Under the pieces are notes generated by a model. The model made no database searches. It saw only the letters and a program-made list of their open reading frames with translations, and was not told the DNA's origin. From Verrucomicrobiota bacterium (lineage in GTDB: Bacteria > Verrucomicrobiota > Verrucomicrobiia > Limisphaerales > JACQFS01), in the NCBI GenBank assembly GCA_016199935.1, contig JACQFS010000033.1, forward strand, positions 1 to 47,134: DNA of 47,134 bases. Reading direction: 5' to 3'. The position numbers and the translations under genes are program-made. Numbering within the stretch: the first letter of the stretch is position 1; every line of letters begins with the position of its first letter. This document shows positions 6,055 through 38,688 of the stretch, piece after piece.

Positions 6055-7026
6055 TCAGGGCGAAAACTTTTGGATGCGCTGGTTCGACGCGTCCACCACG
6101 TAAATGAAACCGTGGCTGTCCGCGGCCATCGCGTGCGGCAGGTGGAACTGGCCGGGTGCGTCGCCTTCCGCGTCGTTGAGGCTCAGGAGAAATTTTCCGT
6201 CCAGCGTGAAAAGCTGCACGCGGCTGTTCGTCGCGCCCGCCCACACGCGGCCGCGGCGGTCCACCAACACGCCGATGGGGCCGGGCAGGGGAGTGCGCGT
6301 GGGTTTTTCGCGTCCACCGAAACCGCCGGGGTCTTTGCTGTTGCTGCCCCACGCGATGAGTGGTTTTCCCTCGGGAGTGAGCCGCTGGATGCGACCGTCG
6401 TGCGACTCGGTGGTGTAAATGTTCCCGCGCGCGTCGAAGGCGAGGAAGTGCGGGCCGCCGAAACGGCTGCCGAATTTGTCGCCGCCGCCGAACTGGCCCG
6501 GCGCGGTGCCGTGGCCGCCGAAGCTCGAAAGAAATTTTCCGTCGCCCGTGAAGCGTTGCACGCGGTGGTTGCCCTGATCGGCGACGTAGAGCGCGCCGTC
6601 GGGGCCGAGGGCGAGGCCGCCGAGTTTGTCGAACTCGCCGTCGCCCTTGCCGGCCTTGCCCCATTTGCGCAGCGGCATGCCGTTGAGATCGTAAACGCAA
6701 ACCTCCGGCGTGGTCATCGAGGTGACGAAAATTTCCTCGCGGTCGTTCACCGCGATGCCGCCGGGATTGATCACGCACGGGAACTGGCCGAGATAGTTCC
6801 CGCTCGTGTCGAACTTCTGCACGCGGCTGTTGTTGAACTCCGCGACCACGATGATGTCGCGCCGGCTGATGGCGATGCCGATGGGCGAACGAAACTCTCC
6901 CGGCCCGATTCCTTTCTGGCCCCACGCCAGCACGAAGCGCGGCGCGCCGCCGGCGGCGAAGCTCAAAGGGCAAAGCTCAAAGCTCAAGAGAAGGGCCAAG
7001 GTCCAGAGGACAACGCGGGGTTTCAT
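6055..7026 (-). CDS. Secreted NHL-repeat beta-propeller protein
   Basis: 323 residues with signal peptide MKPRVVLWTLALLLSFELC. About six NHL repeats follow, recognisable by recurring PxGIA...IVVAEFNNSRVQKFDTSG, LYVADQGNHRVQRFTGDG and IYVVDASNQRIQKF. NHL repeats form a six-bladed propeller used for binding or, in some families, catalysis (for example peptidyl-alpha-hydroxyglycine lyase); no catalytic assignment is possible here. The frame extends upstream to 7197, but the start at 7026 gives the signal peptide directly at the N-terminus and avoids translating the tandem repeat at 7039-7071. Confidence 0.8.
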   Translation of the reverse strand: MKPRVVLWTLALLLSFELCPLSFAAGGAPRFVLAWGQKGIGPGEFRSPIGIAISRRDIIVVAEFNNSRVQKFDTSGNYLGQFPCVINPGGIAVNDREEIFVTSMTTPEVCVYDLNGMPLRKWGKAGKGDGEFDKLGGLALGPDGALYVADQGNHRVQRFTGDGKFLSSFGGHGTAPGQFGGGDKFGSRFGGPHFLAFDARGNIYTTESHDGRIQRLTPEGKPLIAWGSNSKDPGGFGGREKPTRTPLPGPIGVLVDRRGRVWAGATNSRVQLFTLDGKFLLSLNDAEGDAPGQFHLPHAMAADSHGFIYVVDASNQRIQKFSP

Positions 7027-7038
7027 GGTCGGAATTTT

Positions 7039-7071
7039 AACCACGGATGGACACGGATGCACACGGATAAG
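7039..7071. repeat. ACACGGAT-type short tandem repeat
   Basis: Four imperfect units (ccacggatgg, acacggatgc, acacggata) lie between the NHL-protein start and the preceding gene's stop on the same strand. Same family as the repeats at 2326, 13629 and 41103. Confidence 0.85.
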
Positions 7072-7094
7072 ATGGCCGTTCAATGCGCACGCGC

Positions 7095-8612
7095 TCACTT
7101 GTCCCCCGCGCGGAACGTATAGAGGTCGGCGTCCTTCAACTGGAACTCCAGCCGGATGACTTTGCCTTTGAGTTCGTCGAGGGATTTGCTGTTCCACTTC
7201 ACTTCGTGCGCGACGTTGTCGCCGGTGAACGCGGGGGCATCGTCGTAATTGAAACCCTTGATCGGCTTCCGCAATTCATCTGACACGCGCACTTTCATTT
7301 CGCCCGCGTGCGCGTCCGCGTTCACGAGCAGCGCGCCGCCGGGCCAGCGAAGTGCGCGGGTGCAGACCACGCCGCCCGTCTTGGGGCCGTGCTGCGATAC
7401 GAAGCCTTCCTTGCGCAGCGTCGCGAGGCCGATGGCGCCGGTGCGGGCCTTGGGGTCGTCGTGCGCGCCGTCGAAGCCGGCGTAGTAAATCCACCATTCG
7501 TCGCCGACCTCGACCCAGCGCGCGGTGCCGACGACCATCGAGTGATCCCACGCGCCCGCCGGGCCGAATTCGATGAGGTGTTGGCGCGCGGGTAGTCGCT
7601 CGAAGTTCCAGCCGTCGCGGCTCCAGGCAATTTCACTCGCGTAGAGATCGTTCCACAGGAACGGCGCGAGATGGCCCCACCAGATTCCCGCGTGCTGATG
7701 CACGGGCATGGCCATGAAATAATTGTAGCCCAACTCGGCGTCGCGCTCGTCGGGCATGAGGATGGTCTGCGGGCGGACGTTCCACTCGGTCCAGAGTTCC
7801 TTGCTGCTCATGCGCGAGAGGCCGCGGCGGGATTCGCCGCTGCTGAGCATCTCCTTCGTCTGGCCGGGCGCGCGGTAGATGTGCTTGGAGCGGCAGAACA
7901 TCACATACTCGTCGCGCGCGGCGTCGTATTGAATCGTGTTGTGCTGGTCGCTGGAAAGTTTGGCGATGCGCAAGTCGCTCTTGAAGTCCCAGTGAATTCC
8001 GTCCTGCGAGCCGATCAGATGGATGCCGTTGAGCGGCGCGGCGGTCATCAGGTAGTGCATCACGTAACGGAAGCCGCGGCGGTCCTTCTCCGGCAACTCG
8101 AGCATTTGCGGCGCGTGGGTGCCGCACTGGGGCGCGTCGAGGTGGTGGATGACCGTGTTGCGCGCGAGGTTGAACTTCTTCGCGTCGGGGAACAGATCGA
8201 GCGCGGGCTTTTCCCAATGCACGCCGTCCCTGGATTCCGCGTAGGCGACGGAGACGGAGTAGTTGCGCGGGTTGGTGCTTTCCTCCGGGTATTTCACGTT
8301 GGCCTGATACCACATGCGGAACTTCCCGCCGGCTTCGCGCAGCGCCCAAAGATTGCTCGGGTCATCACCGGTGATCAACGGATTGGCCGCGTGCTTCTTC
8401 GGCTGGTGCAGCACGCGTTTCACCGGCTCGCCCTTTGGTTTCAATCCCCACGTGGTGTCCACGGTGTAAAGATCGAAGACGAATTGCGGCTCGTGCCCGA
8501 TCTCCATCGGCTCGGCAGGAAACGTGGCGGCGTCCGCGCGCGGCGCGAGCGCGAGGAAGGCGAGGAGCGCGGAGCATAAGGCGGAAATGGCGGCGGGCGG
8601 GACGGTTTTCAT
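7095..8612 (-). CDS. Secreted five-bladed-propeller protein resembling glycoside hydrolase clans 32/43
   Basis: 505 residues starting MKTVPPAAISALCSALLAFL with a signal peptide ending near ADA. The body contains repeated blade-like segments of the form W..S.DG.HW (SRDGVHWEKP, SQDGIHWDFK, SRDGWNFERL), typical of five-bladed propellers of the GH32/GH43/GH130 type. Many verrucomicrobial and planctomycetal homologues have no known activity. Catalytic acids cannot be assigned with confidence. The frame extends upstream, but the Met at 8612 directly precedes the signal peptide. It lies upstream of the NHL gene on the same strand, 68 bp apart, so co-expression is possible. Confidence 0.65.
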   Translation of the reverse strand: MKTVPPAAISALCSALLAFLALAPRADAATFPAEPMEIGHEPQFVFDLYTVDTTWGLKPKGEPVKRVLHQPKKHAANPLITGDDPSNLWALREAGGKFRMWYQANVKYPEESTNPRNYSVSVAYAESRDGVHWEKPALDLFPDAKKFNLARNTVIHHLDAPQCGTHAPQMLELPEKDRRGFRYVMHYLMTAAPLNGIHLIGSQDGIHWDFKSDLRIAKLSSDQHNTIQYDAARDEYVMFCRSKHIYRAPGQTKEMLSSGESRRGLSRMSSKELWTEWNVRPQTILMPDERDAELGYNYFMAMPVHQHAGIWWGHLAPFLWNDLYASEIAWSRDGWNFERLPARQHLIEFGPAGAWDHSMVVGTARWVEVGDEWWIYYAGFDGAHDDPKARTGAIGLATLRKEGFVSQHGPKTGGVVCTRALRWPGGALLVNADAHAGEMKVRVSDELRKPIKGFNYDDAPAFTGDNVAHEVKWNSKSLDELKGKVIRLEFQLKDADLYTFRAGDK

Positions 8613-8836: not shown

Positions 8837-9841
8837 ATGTTCCGGCTGCTCACGATTTTTTTGCTCCTCGCCGCGTCCGCTCTCGCGGCGCACGCGCAGA
8901 GTCCCCTGAGCAAACTCCCCCACGTCGAACTCTACGGCCACACCTACGTCCCGCTCGCCGACTGGGCCGTGGCCAACGGCCTCAAGGCCGCGTGGACCCA
9001 GAAGGACAAGGTCGCCATCGTCACCAACCGCACCCTGCGCCTCCAGTTCGAGGCCGACTCGCGCAAGGCCTCCATTGACCGCATCGGCATCTACCTCAGC
9101 GTCCCCTTTGCCGTGCGCGCCGGCACGCCCTACATCTCCGTGCAGGACCTCACCACCACCATCCAGCCGGTTTTGTTTCCGGTGAAAAATTCGCCGGGCC
9201 AGCGCGTGCGCACCATCTGCCTCGACCCCGGCCACGGCGGCAAGGACACCGGCAACATCGCCGGCAGCGCGCAGGAGAAACGCTACACCCTCCAACTCGC
9301 CCTCGAAGTGAAGACGCTCCTGAAAGAAGCCGGCCTCAAAGTCGTGCTCACGCGCAACGACGACCGCTTCATCGAACTCGGCGACCGCGACACCATCGCG
9401 CGGAAAAACGGCGCGGACCTTTTCGTGAGCCTCCACTTCAACGGCCAGGCCGGCGGCAACGACGGCCGCGGCGCCGAGTCCTACTGCCTGACCCCGGCCA
9501 AGGCCAGCTCCACCAACGCCCGCGGCGAGGGCGCCGAGAACGGCAACTTTCCCGGCAACAAGTTCAACGAGAAAAACGTCCTGCTCGCCTACCAGATTCA
9601 CAAGCGGCTCGAACGCGACCTCGGCCTCGAGGACCGCGGGGTGCGCCGCGCGCGCTTCGCCGTGTTGCGCACGGCCGAGATGCCGGCGGTGCTCATCGAG
9701 GGCGGTTTCCTTTCCAATCCCGACGAGCGCCGGCGCATCACCGACGCCGGGCAGCTCCGGCAGATGGCGCGCGCGATTGTGGATGGCCTCCTGGCCTACA
9801 AGCGCCTCGTGGAGCGCGCGGAGATTCGCGCGGCGCAGTGA
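8837..9841 (+). CDS. amiC: N-acetylmuramoyl-L-alanine amidase (Amidase_3, AmiC type)
   Basis: 334 residues with signal peptide MFRLLTIFLLLAASALAAHA. Residues about 30-110 look like a copper-amine-oxidase-type N-terminal binding domain (VELYGHTYVPLADWAVANG). The catalytic domain starts at about 125 with TICLDPGHGGKDTG. Zinc ligands are His133, Glu147 (AQEKRYTL) and His200 (VSLHFNGQ), and the catalytic Glu is Glu288 in VLIEGGFLSN. All expected residues are present. It would cut the amide between N-acetylmuramic acid and the peptide stem in the periplasm, for cell separation or wall turnover. No regulatory EnvC/NlpD partner is visible nearby. Confidence 0.9.
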   Translation: MFRLLTIFLLLAASALAAHAQSPLSKLPHVELYGHTYVPLADWAVANGLKAAWTQKDKVAIVTNRTLRLQFEADSRKASIDRIGIYLSVPFAVRAGTPYISVQDLTTTIQPVLFPVKNSPGQRVRTICLDPGHGGKDTGNIAGSAQEKRYTLQLALEVKTLLKEAGLKVVLTRNDDRFIELGDRDTIARKNGADLFVSLHFNGQAGGNDGRGAESYCLTPAKASSTNARGEGAENGNFPGNKFNEKNVLLAYQIHKRLERDLGLEDRGVRRARFAVLRTAEMPAVLIEGGFLSNPDERRRITDAGQLRQMARAIVDGLLAYKRLVERAEIRAAQ

Positions 9842-10049: not shown

Positions 10050-10134
10050 GGTAGGGCGCGGTGTCCTCACCGCGCCGCGGATAACCCAACGCGTCCGGCC
10101 GCATCGCGGCGCGCTGAGGACAGCGCGCCCTACC
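10050..10134. repeat. REPIN: two inverted REP hairpins with GTAG foot
   Basis: The left unit 10050-10079 is GTAG followed by the hairpin GGCGCGGTG-TCCT-CACCGCGCC. The right unit 10105-10134 is its inverted copy, GGCGCGCTG-AGGA-CAGCGCGCC followed by CTAC. The arms match in 28 of 30 positions, and the two differences pair with each other inside each hairpin. GTAG plus hairpin plus inverted mate is the textbook structure of REP doublets mobilised by RAYT transposases. Confidence 0.8.
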
Positions 10135-11675: not shown

Positions 11676-11697
11676 GCGCAGAGCTGGAGCTCTGCGC
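11676..11697. repeat. REP hairpin of the GGAGCGCNGAGCTCC family
   Basis: GCGCAGAGCT-gg-AGCTCTGCGC is a perfect 10-bp palindrome ending 5 bp before the stop codon of the ThuA-like gene on the minus strand. Read on the minus strand it is preceded by GGAG. Related copies are at 21352-21373 and 22058-22131. Confidence 0.75.
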
Positions 11698-11702
11698 TCC
11701 GA

Positions 11703-13372: not shown

Positions 13373-13460
13373 GGGCGGGCTTATACGGGCGGGGGGCGCG
13401 CTTGGGAAGCGTTGATTTGAACCCGCACTCCGAAGGGGCGCATCTTGACATCGTGGGTTC

Positions 13461-13570
13461 GGACCGCGAGCCGTCCCGGCGCGCAGCGGCTCCGCAGCAA
13501 GGAAGCGTCCGTTCAGTCCAAACGCCCGTCGGCACTCGTGGCCGCTGCGAGCCGGGACGGCTCGCGGTCC
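13461..13570. repeat. REPIN-like inverted pair, GGACCGCGAGCCG family
   Basis: 13461-13490 and 13541-13570 are inverted copies matching in 29 of 30 positions around a 50-bp spacer. Each arm contains its own hairpin (GCGAGCCG-tcc-CGGCTCGC, with one mismatch in the left arm). It lies in the 597-bp divergent gap between the ThuA gene and the giant secreted-protein gene. Confidence 0.8.
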
Positions 13571-13628
13571 GGTCTTCGGGCGTCCCGCCGCTTTACCCAC
13601 GATTAAAAGATGCGCCCACTCCGAAGTT

Positions 13629-21346: not shown

Positions 21347-21351
21347 ACGGA

Positions 21352-21373
21352 GCGCGGAGCTCCAGCTCCGCGC
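21352..21373. repeat. REP hairpin of the GGAGCGCNGAGCTCC family
   Basis: GCGCGGAGCT-cc-AGCTCCGCGC is a perfect 10-bp palindrome, preceded by GGA(GC) and starting 5 bp after the giant gene's stop. Compared with 11676-11697, one stem pair is changed from A-T to G-C on both sides. Confidence 0.75.
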
Positions 21374-21459: not shown

Positions 21460-21972
21460 ATGCCGGCCATGCCCGACCTGGAGCGACTCTACGATGAGCA
21501 CGCGCCGGCCCTGTTCGGCTTCGTGCTGAACCTCACCCGCGACGACGCCGACGCGCGCGACATTCTCCAGGAATGCTTTCAGAAAATTGCCGCCCACCCC
21601 CGCCGGCTCGACGGCGTCCGCGACGAGCGTGCGTTTCTCCTGCGTCTCGCGCACAACGCGACCATTGATCTCATCCGCCGGCGCGATTCGCGCGAGCGCA
21701 GGCACGAGGCCGCCGGCGCGGAACTCGCCGGACTCTTCGCTCCCACCGCCGACCCGGACGAAGCCGCGTTCCGCTCCGCCGTGGAGGATGCGCTCGCGGA
21801 GCTCCCGCCCGAACAGCGCGCCGTCGTCCACCTCAAGCTCTGGGAGGGACTCACCTTCGACGCCATTGCGGAACTGCTCGACATTCCGCCCAGCACCGCC
21901 GCCAGCCGCCATCGCTACGGCTTAGACAAAATGCGCGACCGCCTGCGTCCCCTTTACGACGAGTTGAAATGA
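21460..21972 (+). CDS. ECF-family RNA polymerase sigma factor
   Basis: 170 residues, usual for ECF sigma factors. Region 2 is visible as LYDEHAPALFGFVLNLTRDDADARDILQ and LLRLAHNATIDLIRRR; region 4 is visible as LAELPPEQRAVVHLKLWEGL followed by the helix-turn-helix TFDAIAELLDIPPSTAASRHRYGLDKMR. The start at 21460 could also be the ATG at 21469. The stop overlaps the next gene's start (ATGA), which indicates translational coupling to a one-TM protein that is likely its regulator. The target promoters are unknown. Confidence 0.9.
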   Translation: MPAMPDLERLYDEHAPALFGFVLNLTRDDADARDILQECFQKIAAHPRRLDGVRDERAFLLRLAHNATIDLIRRRDSRERRHEAAGAELAGLFAPTADPDEAAFRSAVEDALAELPPEQRAVVHLKLWEGLTFDAIAELLDIPPSTAASRHRYGLDKMRDRLRPLYDELK

Positions 21973-22406
21973 ACACCGACGACCTCGAACAAAAACTCCG
22001 CCGCCAGCCGCTGCGCGAACTCCCGAGCGAATGGCGCGCGCAAATCCTCGCCGCCTGCGGAGCGCAGAGCTCCAGGTCGGCGGGAACAATCCCCGCAACC
22101 CCACCGGGCGGAGCTGGAGCTCCGCGCTCCGAACCGCCGTGGTGGCTCGCGTGGTTCAATCCCTCCCGCGCCGGCTGGGCCGCGCTCGGCGCCGTGTGGC
22201 TTGTCATCGCCGCGCTGAACTTCGCCGGCCCTCGCGACGATGCCTCCGTTTCCGCCCCGGGCGCGGTCGCCGCCTCGCCGCACGACTGGCTGGAGCGCCG
22301 CCGCATCATGGCCGAACTCATCGGCCCCGCCGAACCGCCGGAGCCGCCCGCCGTTACCCGCCCGCGCAGCGAGCGGCGCGCGAACATCATTCTGCTTTGC
22401 GTCTGA
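21969..22406 (+). CDS. Putative one-TM regulator of the ECF sigma factor
   Basis: 145 residues. The N-terminus MNTDDLEQKLRRQPLRELPSE resembles the short cytoplasmic part of verrucomicrobial anti-sigma-like proteins. A single TM helix (WAALGAVWLVIAALNFAG) follows, then an extracytoplasmic tail. It overlaps the sigma gene by 4 bp, which supports an anti-sigma or sensor role; no ZAS zinc motif is present, so this is inferred from context. Residues about 30-54 (CGAQSSRSAG...GAGAPRSEP) are encoded by an inserted palindromic element at 22058-22131 rather than ordinary coding sequence. Confidence 0.65.
   Translation: MNTDDLEQKLRRQPLRELPSEWRAQILAACGAQSSRSAGTIPATPPGGAGAPRSEPPWWLAWFNPSRAGWAALGAVWLVIAALNFAGPRDDASVSAPGAVAASPHDWLERRRIMAELIGPAEPPEPPAVTRPRSERRANIILLCV
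22058..22131. repeat. REPIN located inside a coding sequence
   Basis: Left arm 22058-22078 (CGGAGCGCAGAGCTCCAGG..) and right arm 22111-22131 (..GGAGCTCCGCGCTCCG) are inverted copies matching in 19 of 21 positions around a 32-bp spacer that has its own small GCGGG/CCCGC hairpin. The frame of the host gene stays open through it. Confidence 0.8.
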
Positions 22407-22409
22407 CTC

Positions 22410-23933
22410 ATGAACGAAATCCCCACTCCTCCCCGCCCGCGCCGCTGGCTTCGGTGGCTCAAGCGCCTCGGCTGGTGCGCGCTCTGGCTCGTCACGCTCG
22501 TTGCGCTGTTCGTCGTCGTCGAAAACTGGCGCGGGCGCCGCGCGTGGGAAAAATATGTCGCCGAGGCCAAGGCCGCCGGCGAGCATCTCGAACCCTCCGC
22601 CATCCTTCCGCCGCCCGTGCCGGATGCGGAAAACTTTGCGGCCATCCCGCTGTTTCACCCGCTGTTTGATTTCACCAATGACGTCGTGATGGGTGCCAAA
22701 GGCTGGCGCGATCCCGCGGCGAGGGATCGGGTGCAGAATCTCAAGCCTTTGCACACAAACCCGGCGGCGCATGCCGCCTCTTGGCGTCACGGCAAATTCA
22801 CCGACCTCGCCGCGTTGCAGGCGCGTTATCGGGGCGACACGAATTTTCCCGCGCGTGCGCAGCCGGGCCGGCCCGCGGAGGATGTGCTCGTCGCGCTTGG
22901 CAGATTCGACGCGGAGTTGAACGAACTGCGCGCCGCCGCCGGCCGGCCGCACAGCCGCTTTCCCATCAACTACGAGGACAACTTCTCCGCGTTGCTGCCG
23001 CACCTTCAGGCGCTGCGCAACTTCGCCGGCATCGCGCAGCATCGCGCGCTCGCCGAGTTGTCGCTCGGACAGATCGTCGCCGCGCATGACGACGTTCGCC
23101 TGGCGCTGCGGCTGGCGGAATCCGTCGAAACCGAGCCGCTGCTCATCTCGCTGCTGATGTGGCTGTCGGTGCTGGAAACGGCCATGCCGCCGTTGTGGGA
23201 GGGACTCGCGCGCCACGAATGGAACGATGCGCAACTCGCCGCCTTCGAGGCCCGCCTCGCGCGCGTCAACCTCGCCGCGTCGCTTCAGTCCGGTCTGCGC
23301 GGCGAACGACTGCTCATGTTCGGCGCGCTCGATCATTTCAAAAAGCAACCAGGTTTATTCGACACCACAAGCCTGGAAGACGGCAGCGCGGTGCTGGGGT
23401 GGATGCCGACCGGATGGTTTGATCAGAACAAGGTGGTCATGGGGCGGATGTATGCCCAACTGGTTGAAACGGCGGAGCCGGACGCCCGGCGTTTCAAACC
23501 AGAACGCGCGCTGGCGGTCGAACAGCAACTGATGGCGCTCAAGCCTCGCTGGTGGCTGCACCCCCACACCATCTTGACCACGCTGCTCATGCCCGCGCTC
23601 ACCAAGGCGACGGAACGCACCGCTGCGACACAGGCCACCGTGGACCTCGCGCGCGTCGCCATCGCTCTGGAGCGCCACCGGCTCAAGCACGGCGCGCTGC
23701 CCACCTCGCTCGATGCGCTCGACGCATCCGTGAAACCCGCCGGCGGTCTGCCGCGCGATGTCATCACGGGTGAGGCGCTGCATTACGCGCCGAGTGCGGA
23801 TGGAAAGTTCAAACTCTACTCGACCGGCTGGAACGGCATGGATGATGGCGGCACGACCGTCTGGACCGACGCGAAACAGACGCGCGTGGATTTCACCAAG
23901 GGCGACTGGGTCTGGCCGATGCCGGAGAAGTGA
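22410..23933 (+). CDS. Hypothetical membrane-anchored protein in sigma-factor operon
   Basis: 507 residues. A basic N-terminus (RPRRWLRWLKRLGW) leads into one TM helix (CALWLVTLVALFVVV), and the remainder would be periplasmic. It contains a WRGRRAWEKYVAEAKAAGEHL amphipathic segment and an alpha-rich middle. The C-terminal 100 residues (ERHRLKHGALPTSLDALD...YSTGWNGMDDGG) resemble the soluble part of type II pseudopilins. I do not know a function. It starts 3 bp after the putative anti-sigma gene, so the three genes form one unit and this may be the sigma factor's target or signal-transducing partner. A REPIN follows 1 bp after the stop. Confidence 0.7.
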   Translation: MNEIPTPPRPRRWLRWLKRLGWCALWLVTLVALFVVVENWRGRRAWEKYVAEAKAAGEHLEPSAILPPPVPDAENFAAIPLFHPLFDFTNDVVMGAKGWRDPAARDRVQNLKPLHTNPAAHAASWRHGKFTDLAALQARYRGDTNFPARAQPGRPAEDVLVALGRFDAELNELRAAAGRPHSRFPINYEDNFSALLPHLQALRNFAGIAQHRALAELSLGQIVAAHDDVRLALRLAESVETEPLLISLLMWLSVLETAMPPLWEGLARHEWNDAQLAAFEARLARVNLAASLQSGLRGERLLMFGALDHFKKQPGLFDTTSLEDGSAVLGWMPTGWFDQNKVVMGRMYAQLVETAEPDARRFKPERALAVEQQLMALKPRWWLHPHTILTTLLMPALTKATERTAATQATVDLARVAIALERHRLKHGALPTSLDALDASVKPAGGLPRDVITGEALHYAPSADGKFKLYSTGWNGMDDGGTTVWTDAKQTRVDFTKGDWVWPMPEK

Positions 23934-23934
23934 A

Positions 23935-24014
23935 CGGAGCGCCGAGCACCGCCTCGGCCCGGCGGAGTTTGCAGCTTTAGACACGGCCGGGCCGAGACGG
24001 TGCTCGGCGCTCCG
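23935..24014. repeat. REPIN, GGAGCGCCGAGC family
   Basis: Arms 23935-23962 and 23987-24014 match in 27 of 28 positions. Each has a GGAG foot and a GCCGAG...CTCGGC hairpin; the spacer is 24 bp. It begins 1 bp after the upstream stop codon and ends 48 bp before the next gene's ATG. Confidence 0.85.
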
Positions 24015-25295: not shown

Positions 25296-25302
25296 GTTGT
25301 TT

Positions 25303-25356
25303 GGTGTCCACCCTTCAGGGTGCCACCGCGCGCGGACACGCTGAAGCGTGGACACC
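25303..25356. repeat. REPIN-like inverted pair, GGTGTCCAC family
   Basis: Arms 25303-25322 and 25337-25356 match in 18 of 20 positions. The left hairpin is CACCC-TTCA-GGGTG and the right one CACGC-TGAA-GCGTG: the two differences compensate each other inside each hairpin. It begins 7 bp after the enolase-family gene stop. Confidence 0.8.
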
Positions 25357-25391
25357 GAACGAAGCGGACCGGCGTGGCGGAGCACAGAAGA

Positions 25392-34288: not shown

Positions 34289-35884
34289 TCAGCGCGGCGC
34301 CGCCGCACGCTGCTCGGCGCGGAGTTTGAAGCCGGACAGGCTGCGCAGCACAAACGGCGGCGGGGAATCCGGCGGGAGCGATTGCAGGACGCGACCGAGC
34401 CGCTCGCGCGCCGCGACCGCCGCCGGCTCCCCGCTCGCGGCGAGGTCGTGCTGTTCGTCGGGGTCGGCATTCGCATCGAAGAGCCGGCCATCGGAATAAA
34501 GTTTGAAGCGCGTGTCGCGGACGACGCGCACCGAGGCATACTGGTTGAAAATCCATTCGCGCGGCGGCTTCGCGCCCGGCTCACCGCGGAGAAACGGTGC
34601 GAGCGAGCGGCCATCGAGCGTAACATTTTTTGGAGGCGCGATGCCTGCGAGGTCGCACAGCGTCGGCAGCACGTCGGAGAAATCCGCCAGCGGCGCGGTG
34701 CGTCCGCCGGGGATGAGCTTGGGGCTGTTCGCCAGCAGCACCACGTCACCGCCCGCCTCGGTGAGCGTGTAAAGGCCGCCGCGCACTTCGCGGCCGTTGC
34801 GGCGCGCGGTCATTTCTTTTTCCGTGCCGTTGTCGCTGGCGATGAAGACGAGCGTGTTGTCGCGCAGCCCGAGCCTCTCCAGTTCAACGACCAGTTCGCC
34901 CACGAGCTTGTCGGCGTAGCGCACCATGTCGGCGAACATCTCGTGGTGCGGACGGTTGGTGCTGAGATTGAGCGGCGTCGGCACCACCGGCTCCACGAAC
35001 GACTTTCCGTGCGTCAGCACCATCGGATAGTAGAGCAGGAACGGCCCGCCGCGATGCCGCTGGAGGAATTCGAGCGCGAAGGATTGCAACAGGTCGGGGC
35101 CGAACTTGCCGGGGTGCGTCTCGCGCTTCCCATTGCGCAGGAGCACCGGATCCCAGTAGCGGCTCTCGATGTTGCGGTTGAGCACGGCCAGTTCCTCGTG
35201 CGCCTCGGCGCGGACGAGCGCGCGGAATTTTTCCATCGCGGCCGCGCCGACGCGATTACTGTCAATGCTGCCGGGCCAGACGAGTTGCTCGTCGAAGCCG
35301 TGGCGCTTCAGCACATCCGGTTCGTCGTAGAGATTGTTGATCTGCCATTTGCCCGCGATGCCCGTCGCGTAGCCGGCGTCGCGGAACGGGCGGGCAAAAG
35401 TAATCTCGCGCTTCGGGTCGAAGCCACCGCCGCTGTAGAGCGCGGCATCGTGATGCATCGTGAAGCCGCTGCGCAAAAGGTAGCGGCCCGAGAGCAGCAC
35501 GATGCGGCTCGGCCCGCAGACCGGCGGCGTGTAGCAGTGCTCAACGCGCACGCCTGTCCGCGCGAGCCGGTCAATGTTCGGCGTGCACTTTTCCTCCGAG
35601 CCGTAGCAGCCGAACCATTCCTGCCCCACGTTGTCGAGGAGGATGAAGACAATGTTCGGGCGCGCGGGCGCGGCGGCGCGAGTGGGCGAAACTGCAAAGG
35701 TCGTGAGCAGAGCGCCGAGCAGAACCGCGAACCCGAACCCACCCCTGGCCCCTCCCAGGAGCGGAAAGCGTCGCTTGTAGTTTGAGAATCTCGCGACGTG
35801 CGATTGACCCATTCCCCTCCTGGGAGGGGCCAGGGGTGGGTTCGGCAGCGATTGATTTGCGCGTTCAGCGGAATCCATTTTCAT
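34289..35884 (-). CDS. Sulfatase (Cys-type, arylsulfatase family)
   Basis: 531 residues. The sulfatase signature CGPSRIVLLSGRY has Cys123, which would be converted to formylglycine by a sulfatase-maturing enzyme not seen here. The metal segment is NIVFILLDN: the second Asp of the usual DD pair is Asn. Later landmarks are the His/Lys region GKWQINN and IASDNGTE. The hydrophobic signal core is FAVLLGALLTTFAVSPTRAAA, unusually far from the first Met because a palindromic element (35735-35843) lies in the 5' coding part. Met at 35812 is an alternative start. The first Met overlaps the upstream isomerase gene by 20 bp. Likely substrate: a sulfated glycan. Confidence 0.88.
   Translation of the reverse strand: MKMDSAERANQSLPNPPLAPPRRGMGQSHVARFSNYKRRFPLLGGARGGFGFAVLLGALLTTFAVSPTRAAAPARPNIVFILLDNVGQEWFGCYGSEEKCTPNIDRLARTGVRVEHCYTPPVCGPSRIVLLSGRYLLRSGFTMHHDAALYSGGGFDPKREITFARPFRDAGYATGIAGKWQINNLYDEPDVLKRHGFDEQLVWPGSIDSNRVGAAAMEKFRALVRAEAHEELAVLNRNIESRYWDPVLLRNGKRETHPGKFGPDLLQSFALEFLQRHRGGPFLLYYPMVLTHGKSFVEPVVPTPLNLSTNRPHHEMFADMVRYADKLVGELVVELERLGLRDNTLVFIASDNGTEKEMTARRNGREVRGGLYTLTEAGGDVVLLANSPKLIPGGRTAPLADFSDVLPTLCDLAGIAPPKNVTLDGRSLAPFLRGEPGAKPPREWIFNQYASVRVVRDTRFKLYSDGRLFDANADPDEQHDLAASGEPAAVAARERLGRVLQSLPPDSPPPFVLRSLSGFKLRAEQRAAAPR
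35735..35843. repeat. REPIN-like inverted pair overlapping the sulfatase 5' end
   Basis: Arms 35735-35760 and 35818-35843 are perfect 26-bp inverted copies (GAACCCACCCCTGGCCCC..). Each arm also contains its own hairpin (CCCCTC-CTGG-GAGGGG, one mismatch in one arm). It is read through in the sulfatase frame as PPLAPPRRG and PLLGGARGG. Confidence 0.8.
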
Positions 35885-38547: not shown

Positions 38548-38621
38548 GGTGAACGCGATGTTGGACGGCGGCGAGTGTGCGCGAATTGAAACGAGTTGGC
38601 GAGCGCGCAATTGGCCGGAGC

Positions 38622-38682
38622 GGCGACACTCTTGTCGCCGTCGTCATTCCAATTTGATCACGAGGGCGACAAGAGTGTCGCC
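38622..38682. repeat. REPIN, GGCGACA...TGTCGCC family
   Basis: GGCGACA-CTCT-TGTCGCC (38622-38639) and GGCGACA-AGAG-TGTCGCC (38665-38682) are inverted copies with GGAG-type feet outside and a 25-bp spacer. The right edge is 6 bp from the SASA esterase stop (minus strand). Confidence 0.85.
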
Positions 38683-38688
38683 CCTCCC

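Follow-up and report, generated by a model that had tools for sequence, protein, structure and literature searches.

An in-frame REPIN in the linker of a sigma-factor partner protein and coding palindromes at shared enzyme sites in an order of Verrucomicrobiota

A REPIN of 74 bp, composed of two inverted REP arms, lies in frame within the partner gene of an ECF sigma factor in a verrucomicrobial genome and belongs to a dispersed repeat family with many further in-frame copies in unrelated protein genes. Very probably, a dispersed copy inserted into the variable linker of the sigma partner or took the place of part of it, and insertions of this kind are selected for frame-preserving positions in permissive loops and then translated. 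Mobile REP doublets, i.e., inverted hairpins each with an unpaired GGAG end, would insert at many places; selection would remove insertions that shift the frame or fall into structured regions; and the survivors would be frame-keeping copies in permissive loops that are translated with their host genes. Translation of the REPIN segment, its neutrality, and the role of selection as a filter are what we infer from the sequence patterns described below.

By definition, REPs are extragenic, and palindromes within coding sequence have so far counted as oddities of Rickettsia and a handful of other genomes. The order studied here contains enough of them for elements to be followed across many genomes as they enter, persist at, replace one another at, and disappear from given positions in essential enzymes. 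Two questions can thus be tested directly: do small selfish palindromes supply proteins with new segments, and do the survivors mark merely permissive loops or a targeted mechanism?

The sigma-factor partner and its linker

We analyzed a stretch of 47,134 nt (the window) from a 5.03-Mb draft genome in 260 contigs (Table 1). The partner gene lies immediately 3' of the ECF sigma gene, the stop codon of which overlaps its start, and is co-conserved with it: an ECF sigma homologue (56–69% identity) adjoins the partner gene in orthologous loci, and a profile search of 320 genomes of the order recovered partner relatives in 177. No Pfam domain, including the anti-sigma ASD and zinc-finger domains, was detected in the partner protein at E 0.1; from synteny, an anti-sigma factor is a fair guess. 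The protein consists of a conserved N-terminal segment, a linker, one hydrophobic segment, and an RPRSERR-like tail. Residues E7, L10, Q13, R16, P19, W22, R23, I26, and L27, all located before the REPIN, are invariant among orthologues, and W70, L73, W77, and the C-terminal RPRSERR are conserved after it. Hydropathy peaks downstream of the REPIN-encoded linker, in a candidate TM helix.

The first-pass annotation had placed a REP doublet in frame between the N-terminal segment and the TM segment of this gene. The doublet is real and its coordinates were exact, with the right arm representing a perfect family copy, and orthologues align on both sides of it. Its inverted arms (22058–22081 and 22108–22131) comprise 24 nt each, are 88% complementary, and are separated by a gap of 26 nt. 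Within the open 145-codon gene the element occupies nt 90–163 (codons 30–55, CGAQSSRSAGTIPATPPGGAGAPRSE) and encodes ca. 25 residues rich in Ser, Ala, Gly, and Pro; the protein reads GAQSSRSAGTIPATPPGGAGAPR at this segment. Folded as RNA, the REPIN reaches −50.1 kcal/mol, a stability matched by none of 200 dinucleotide shuffles. The left arm has decayed at this locus, leaving 22 of 27 positions complementary.

Table 1. Features of the window and host genes of in-frame family copies (loci outside the window are given by locus number).
Feature	Location	Strand	Basis or remark
ECF sigma factor gene, 170 aa	21460..21972	+	Pfam Sigma70_r2 2.2e-12, Sigma70_r4_2 1e-11
Sigma-factor partner gene, 145 aa, one predicted TM helix, carries REPIN	21969..22406	+	ORF, relatives, alignment
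REPIN, two inverted REP arms; in-frame copy in the sigma-factor partner gene	22058..22131	+	Inverted repeat, RNA fold z = −6.6, family in genome; codons 30–55
Left REP arm, decayed	22058..22079	-	3 mismatches to GGAGCTGGAGCTCCGCGCTCCG
REPIN spacer between matched 22-nt arms	22080..22109	.	Comparison of 33 paired copies
Right REP arm	22110..22131	+	Exact family sequence
Predicted TM segment AGWAALGAVWLVIAALNFA, residues 68–86	22170..22226	+	Kyte-Doolittle maximum 1.77; conserved W70/W77
Lone REP, same family	21348..21369	-	1 base past stop codon of upstream 1815-aa gene
Further lone REP arm, same family	11680..11701	+	2 mismatches
Valyl-tRNA synthetase (ValS)	L074		In-frame copy
UvrA	L057		In-frame copy
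CstA	L056		In-frame copy
Lactate permease	L058		In-frame copy
Indole-3-glycerol phosphate synthase (IGPS, TrpC)	L044		In-frame copy
Sulfatase	L033		In-frame copy
Acyltransferase/AMP ligase	L052		In-frame copy at domain edge, support somewhat weaker
M28 peptidase	L068		In-frame copy at domain edge, support somewhat weaker
SNF2 helicase	L069		In-frame copy at domain edge, support somewhat weaker
DUF7133	L038		In-frame copy
MbnP	L043		In-frame copy
PQQ repeat protein	L046		In-frame copy
Altronate dehydratase	L048		Two in-frame copies

Orthologues had been expected to be about 25 residues shorter at this point, which proved not to be the case. Measured between the WR..IL motif and the TM tryptophan in 42 distinct sequences, the REPIN-bearing one included, the linker spans 42 aa here and 26–47 aa overall, with a median of 35. 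Since the net excess over the orthologue median is only ca. 7 aa, a clean insertion of 25 residues into an otherwise normal linker is not supported. Without the REPIN the linker would measure ca. 17 aa, less than in every orthologue. Two histories would account for this: the element took the place of some linker sequence, or it inserted where the linker was exceptionally short. The annotation had also raised the case of orthologues that share the segment without the palindrome; the segment is absent from all 41 other linkers, none of which has a comparably strong palindrome either. As judged from these alignments, the REPIN fills, or has partly replaced, a variable juxtamembrane linker. In other lineages, this linker is often encoded by short tandem repeats, e.g., CTCAACTCTCAACCACCAACTCTCAACC for LSTLNHQLST (orthologue linkers were taken from loci L015, L016, L018, L019, L021, L221, L226, and L229–L245), and the kind of repeat that it acquires seems to vary with the lineage.

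The repeat family and its copies inside genes

Four family arms occur in the window, compared to none in 100 shuffles, and the genome contains 81 arms (≤3 mismatches) as opposed to two for a reversed-pattern control; these numbers exclude a chance origin of the arms. The 81 arms form 48 clusters, 33 of which are inverted pairs, all in the '-+' arrangement and mostly with arm starts 28–60 nt apart. The consensus arm (CGGAGCGCRGAGCTCCAGCTCYGCGYG) is a stem-loop behind an unpaired CGGAG, and the spacer sequence is unconserved between the 33 paired copies. In structure, the family is thus one of REPINs, i.e., inverted doublets with a short spacer that are multi-copy and dispersed. It falls outside the GTAG-tagged superfamily: nearly all ends read CGGAG, and GGAG differs from GTAG at position 2, while other palindrome families of the same genome do bear GTAG. 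No clear target motif emerges from the flanks of the 81 outer ends, where preferences are weak and confined to −1 and −2. A stop trinucleotide is located within 6 nt of 22 of these ends, and most non-intragenic copies lie next to stop codons or between genes. In one family REPIN (L073:2501–2663), the spacer itself contains a REPIN of another family.

REP doublets in coding regions had been called rare, a view that this family contradicts. When the sequence around every copy in the genome was retrieved and frames called, about 15 of the 48 copies proved to lie in frame in 14 genes, with homology supporting a coding sequence on either side (Table 1). Only homology-supported cases were counted; gene calling by codon score produced long but spurious ORFs in a genome this rich in GC, among them the rejected host candidates at L049 and L071, which have no Pfam match. 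Lone REPs near gene ends (L053, L064, L065) were excluded as uncertain. A non-exhaustive search recognized no frame-shifted homologue among the family copies. PDB alignments of ValS and UvrA contain gaps at the encoded segments. UvrA carries two different REPINs, both at unaligned gaps; in UvrA as in ValS, the second in-frame palindrome is unrelated to the first and likewise without PDB counterpart (L074:3105–3231 in ValS and L057:2923–2999 in UvrA).

The REP arms are free of stop codons in all six frames, and whole pairs have on average 4.85 open frames of six, compared to 3.72 after shuffling, whereas the GTAG tag itself contains TAG. Because the arms lack stops in every frame, in-frame survival is easier than for GTAG-tagged families, and these open frames may help explain why the intragenic share of this GGAG family (ca. 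31%) is higher than that of the mixed palindromes in the 840-kb sample described below.

Palindromes of other families occur in this genome as well. The window contains six further strong ones (10050–10134, 13460–13571, 23935–24014, 25299–25360, 35733–35845, and 38617–38687), at least four of which match families elsewhere in the genome; that at 23935–24014 begins just past the stop codon of the gene at 22410–23933. A sample of 840 kb from the same genome yielded 106 strong palindromes from more than 20 families (none in the shuffled control), about a dozen of them in frame in coding sequence, including two in MutS and one in LigA, both genes being named by eye from the sequence. The former (L195:8647–8716 and 9394–9466) belong to two other families and lie in an apparent MutS gene, the latter (L180:11205–11280) in an apparent NAD-dependent DNA ligase gene. 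Repair genes are affected again here, as reported for other bacteria.

Sites shared by unrelated palindromes in ValS and UvrA

Within the order, the family is patchily distributed over 34 of 320 genomes, with 82 arms in G130, 30 in G102, and 6 in G101; the named records bearing it are Verrucomicrobia MAGs, one of them labelled Pedosphaera sp. The ValS of G102, which belongs to another bacterial family (71% protein identity), carries a member of this REP family in frame and at the identical position. Its element exhibits paired stem changes (AGA..TCT to GAA..TTC) and a similar spacer, and the encoded segments share 84% amino acid identity, like the flanks (80 and 88%).

A comparison of ValS from 50 genomes (loci L246–L275 and L306–L325) and of 30 UvrA genes (loci L276–L305) revealed that internal palindromes concentrate in three short site windows per gene, which were drawn after the data had been seen: 33 of 36 in ValS (34 of 1063 codons) and 30 of 31 in UvrA (44 of 948 codons), i.e., 63 of 67 together. 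Thirty of the ValS loci and all UvrA loci were top matches to an insert-containing query, which inflates prevalence; the 20 further ValS genes, i.e., lower-ranked matches, contained four palindromes, three of these in site window 1, and mostly an empty site 2 of 23 aa. This empty ValS site is found in many genomes. Each site window harbors between two and nine unrelated sequence families, and since sequences that occupy one site are not related to each other, same-site reuse is independent of the query bias. Two of the inserted families are dispersed in their own genomes, with up to 123 and 96 arms compared to none in controls. None of the ValS and UvrA inserts examined shifts the frame or contains a stop. 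In two species of one genus, a protoporphyrinogen-oxidase-like gene carries a family REP at about the same site (L212 in G102, L215 in G101), and the two inserts differ in their downstream sequence.

Tentatively, the ValS and UvrA loops might represent standing docking sites for REPINs that unrelated families enter or replace, some inserts being retained in several bacterial families as coding sequence together with their hairpin; the sigma-partner linker could then be a younger site of this type. Docking would result from a site preference of the mobilizing enzyme or from exchange via shared GGAGCGC or GTAG ends.

Recurrence at fixed ValS and UvrA sites would also be expected if the hairpin were kept for a role in place, with the peptide being incidental: as an mRNA structure affecting pausing, stability, or the coupling of the partner to sigma, or as a DNA site bound by gyrase or another protein. 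The high stability of the RNA hairpin agrees with such a role, as does the paired stem-base change in ValS, where the same family occupies the same site in two bacterial families. We nevertheless consider it unlikely, as the left arm of the sigma-partner element has decayed and its other orthologues possess no comparable hairpin, the ValS and UvrA sites are occupied by unrelated sequences and lack any insert in many genomes, and paired stem changes may also stem from conversion by other copies. Considerably less probable still is the loss of the segment from the mature product by translational bypass or mRNA removal. Bypassed palindromes have been reported in a yeast mitochondrion, according to a citation in PMC6649704, and stable hairpins at recurrent sites of essential genes would suit such a process, but the examined ValS and UvrA inserts maintain an open frame, a requirement that applies only to translated inserts; this strict conservation of frame disfavors skipping or splicing. 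Chance or misassembly, i.e., a REP-like GC-rich linker or a chimeric contig in a draft genome with 64% GC in the sampled loci, can be set aside given a perfect 22-nt family arm with an inverted partner, the absence of such arms from 100 shuffles, a coding frame that runs into conserved sequence on either side, and the same behavior in dozens of other genes and in independent genomes.

Relation to known elements and mobilization

Intragenic GTAG/CGTC REPs were described by Di Nocera et al. 2013 (PMC3733652), who found the GTAG type to be most abundant in Opitutus terrae (Verrucomicrobiota), where both uvrA genes are doubly interrupted and DNA ligase is affected. In that study, intragenic REP dimers encode 20–30 residues, and insertion at the same site was restricted to recB of two Xanthomonas species, with different sites otherwise (PMC3733652). 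The elements reported here resemble those REPs in the occurrence of in-frame singles and dimers, a doubly interrupted uvrA, the involvement of ligase and repair genes, and the phylum. They differ in their GGAG tag, in stems that are stop-free in six frames, and in that unrelated families reuse identical positions of ValS and UvrA throughout the order. Rickettsia palindromic elements (RPEs; Ogata et al. 2000, 2002), as they are summarized in PMC6649704 and PMC3733652, are likewise in-frame palindromic repeats within protein genes that leave the protein intact, and the present family shares with them in-frame insertion in several unrelated conserved protein genes. Going by these summaries, RPEs differ in phylum and sequence from the GC-rich REP doublets studied here, which also lack the reductive intracellular setting. 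As in the REPINs of Pseudomonas fluorescens (Bertels and Rainey 2011, PMC3116915), two inverted REPs are dispersed as one unit; unlike in that system, we found no cognate RAYT, and a third of the copies are intragenic. In-frame REPs (PMC3733652) and RPEs are thus already known, and the sigma-partner REPIN is one more member. Two observations are apparently new, as we found neither described in the open-access literature searched: unrelated families reuse the same positions of ValS and UvrA throughout an order, and one insert has long been retained in more than one bacterial family.

A cognate RAYT gene flanked by the same REP distinguishes RAYT-driven REPINs from look-alikes, and many REP families are without one. 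None of the four Y1_Tnp genes of the source genome is directly flanked by a family REP, although one has a copy ca. 1.6 kb away. For 26 Y1_Tnp matches in five other carrier genomes, including those richest in the family, no family REP was located within 1.5 kb, and the draft genomes may lack the RAYT. As no RAYT flanked by a family REP was found, mobility is deduced from dispersal only, and mobilization is presumably due to a RAYT-like transposase. At L079, a RAYT-like gene is directly followed by an unrelated palindrome (6972–7190 and 7367–7458; CTGCGAAACAGCAGACTGCCAGTCTGCGCTACG...), possibly a true RAYT/REPIN pair of another family.
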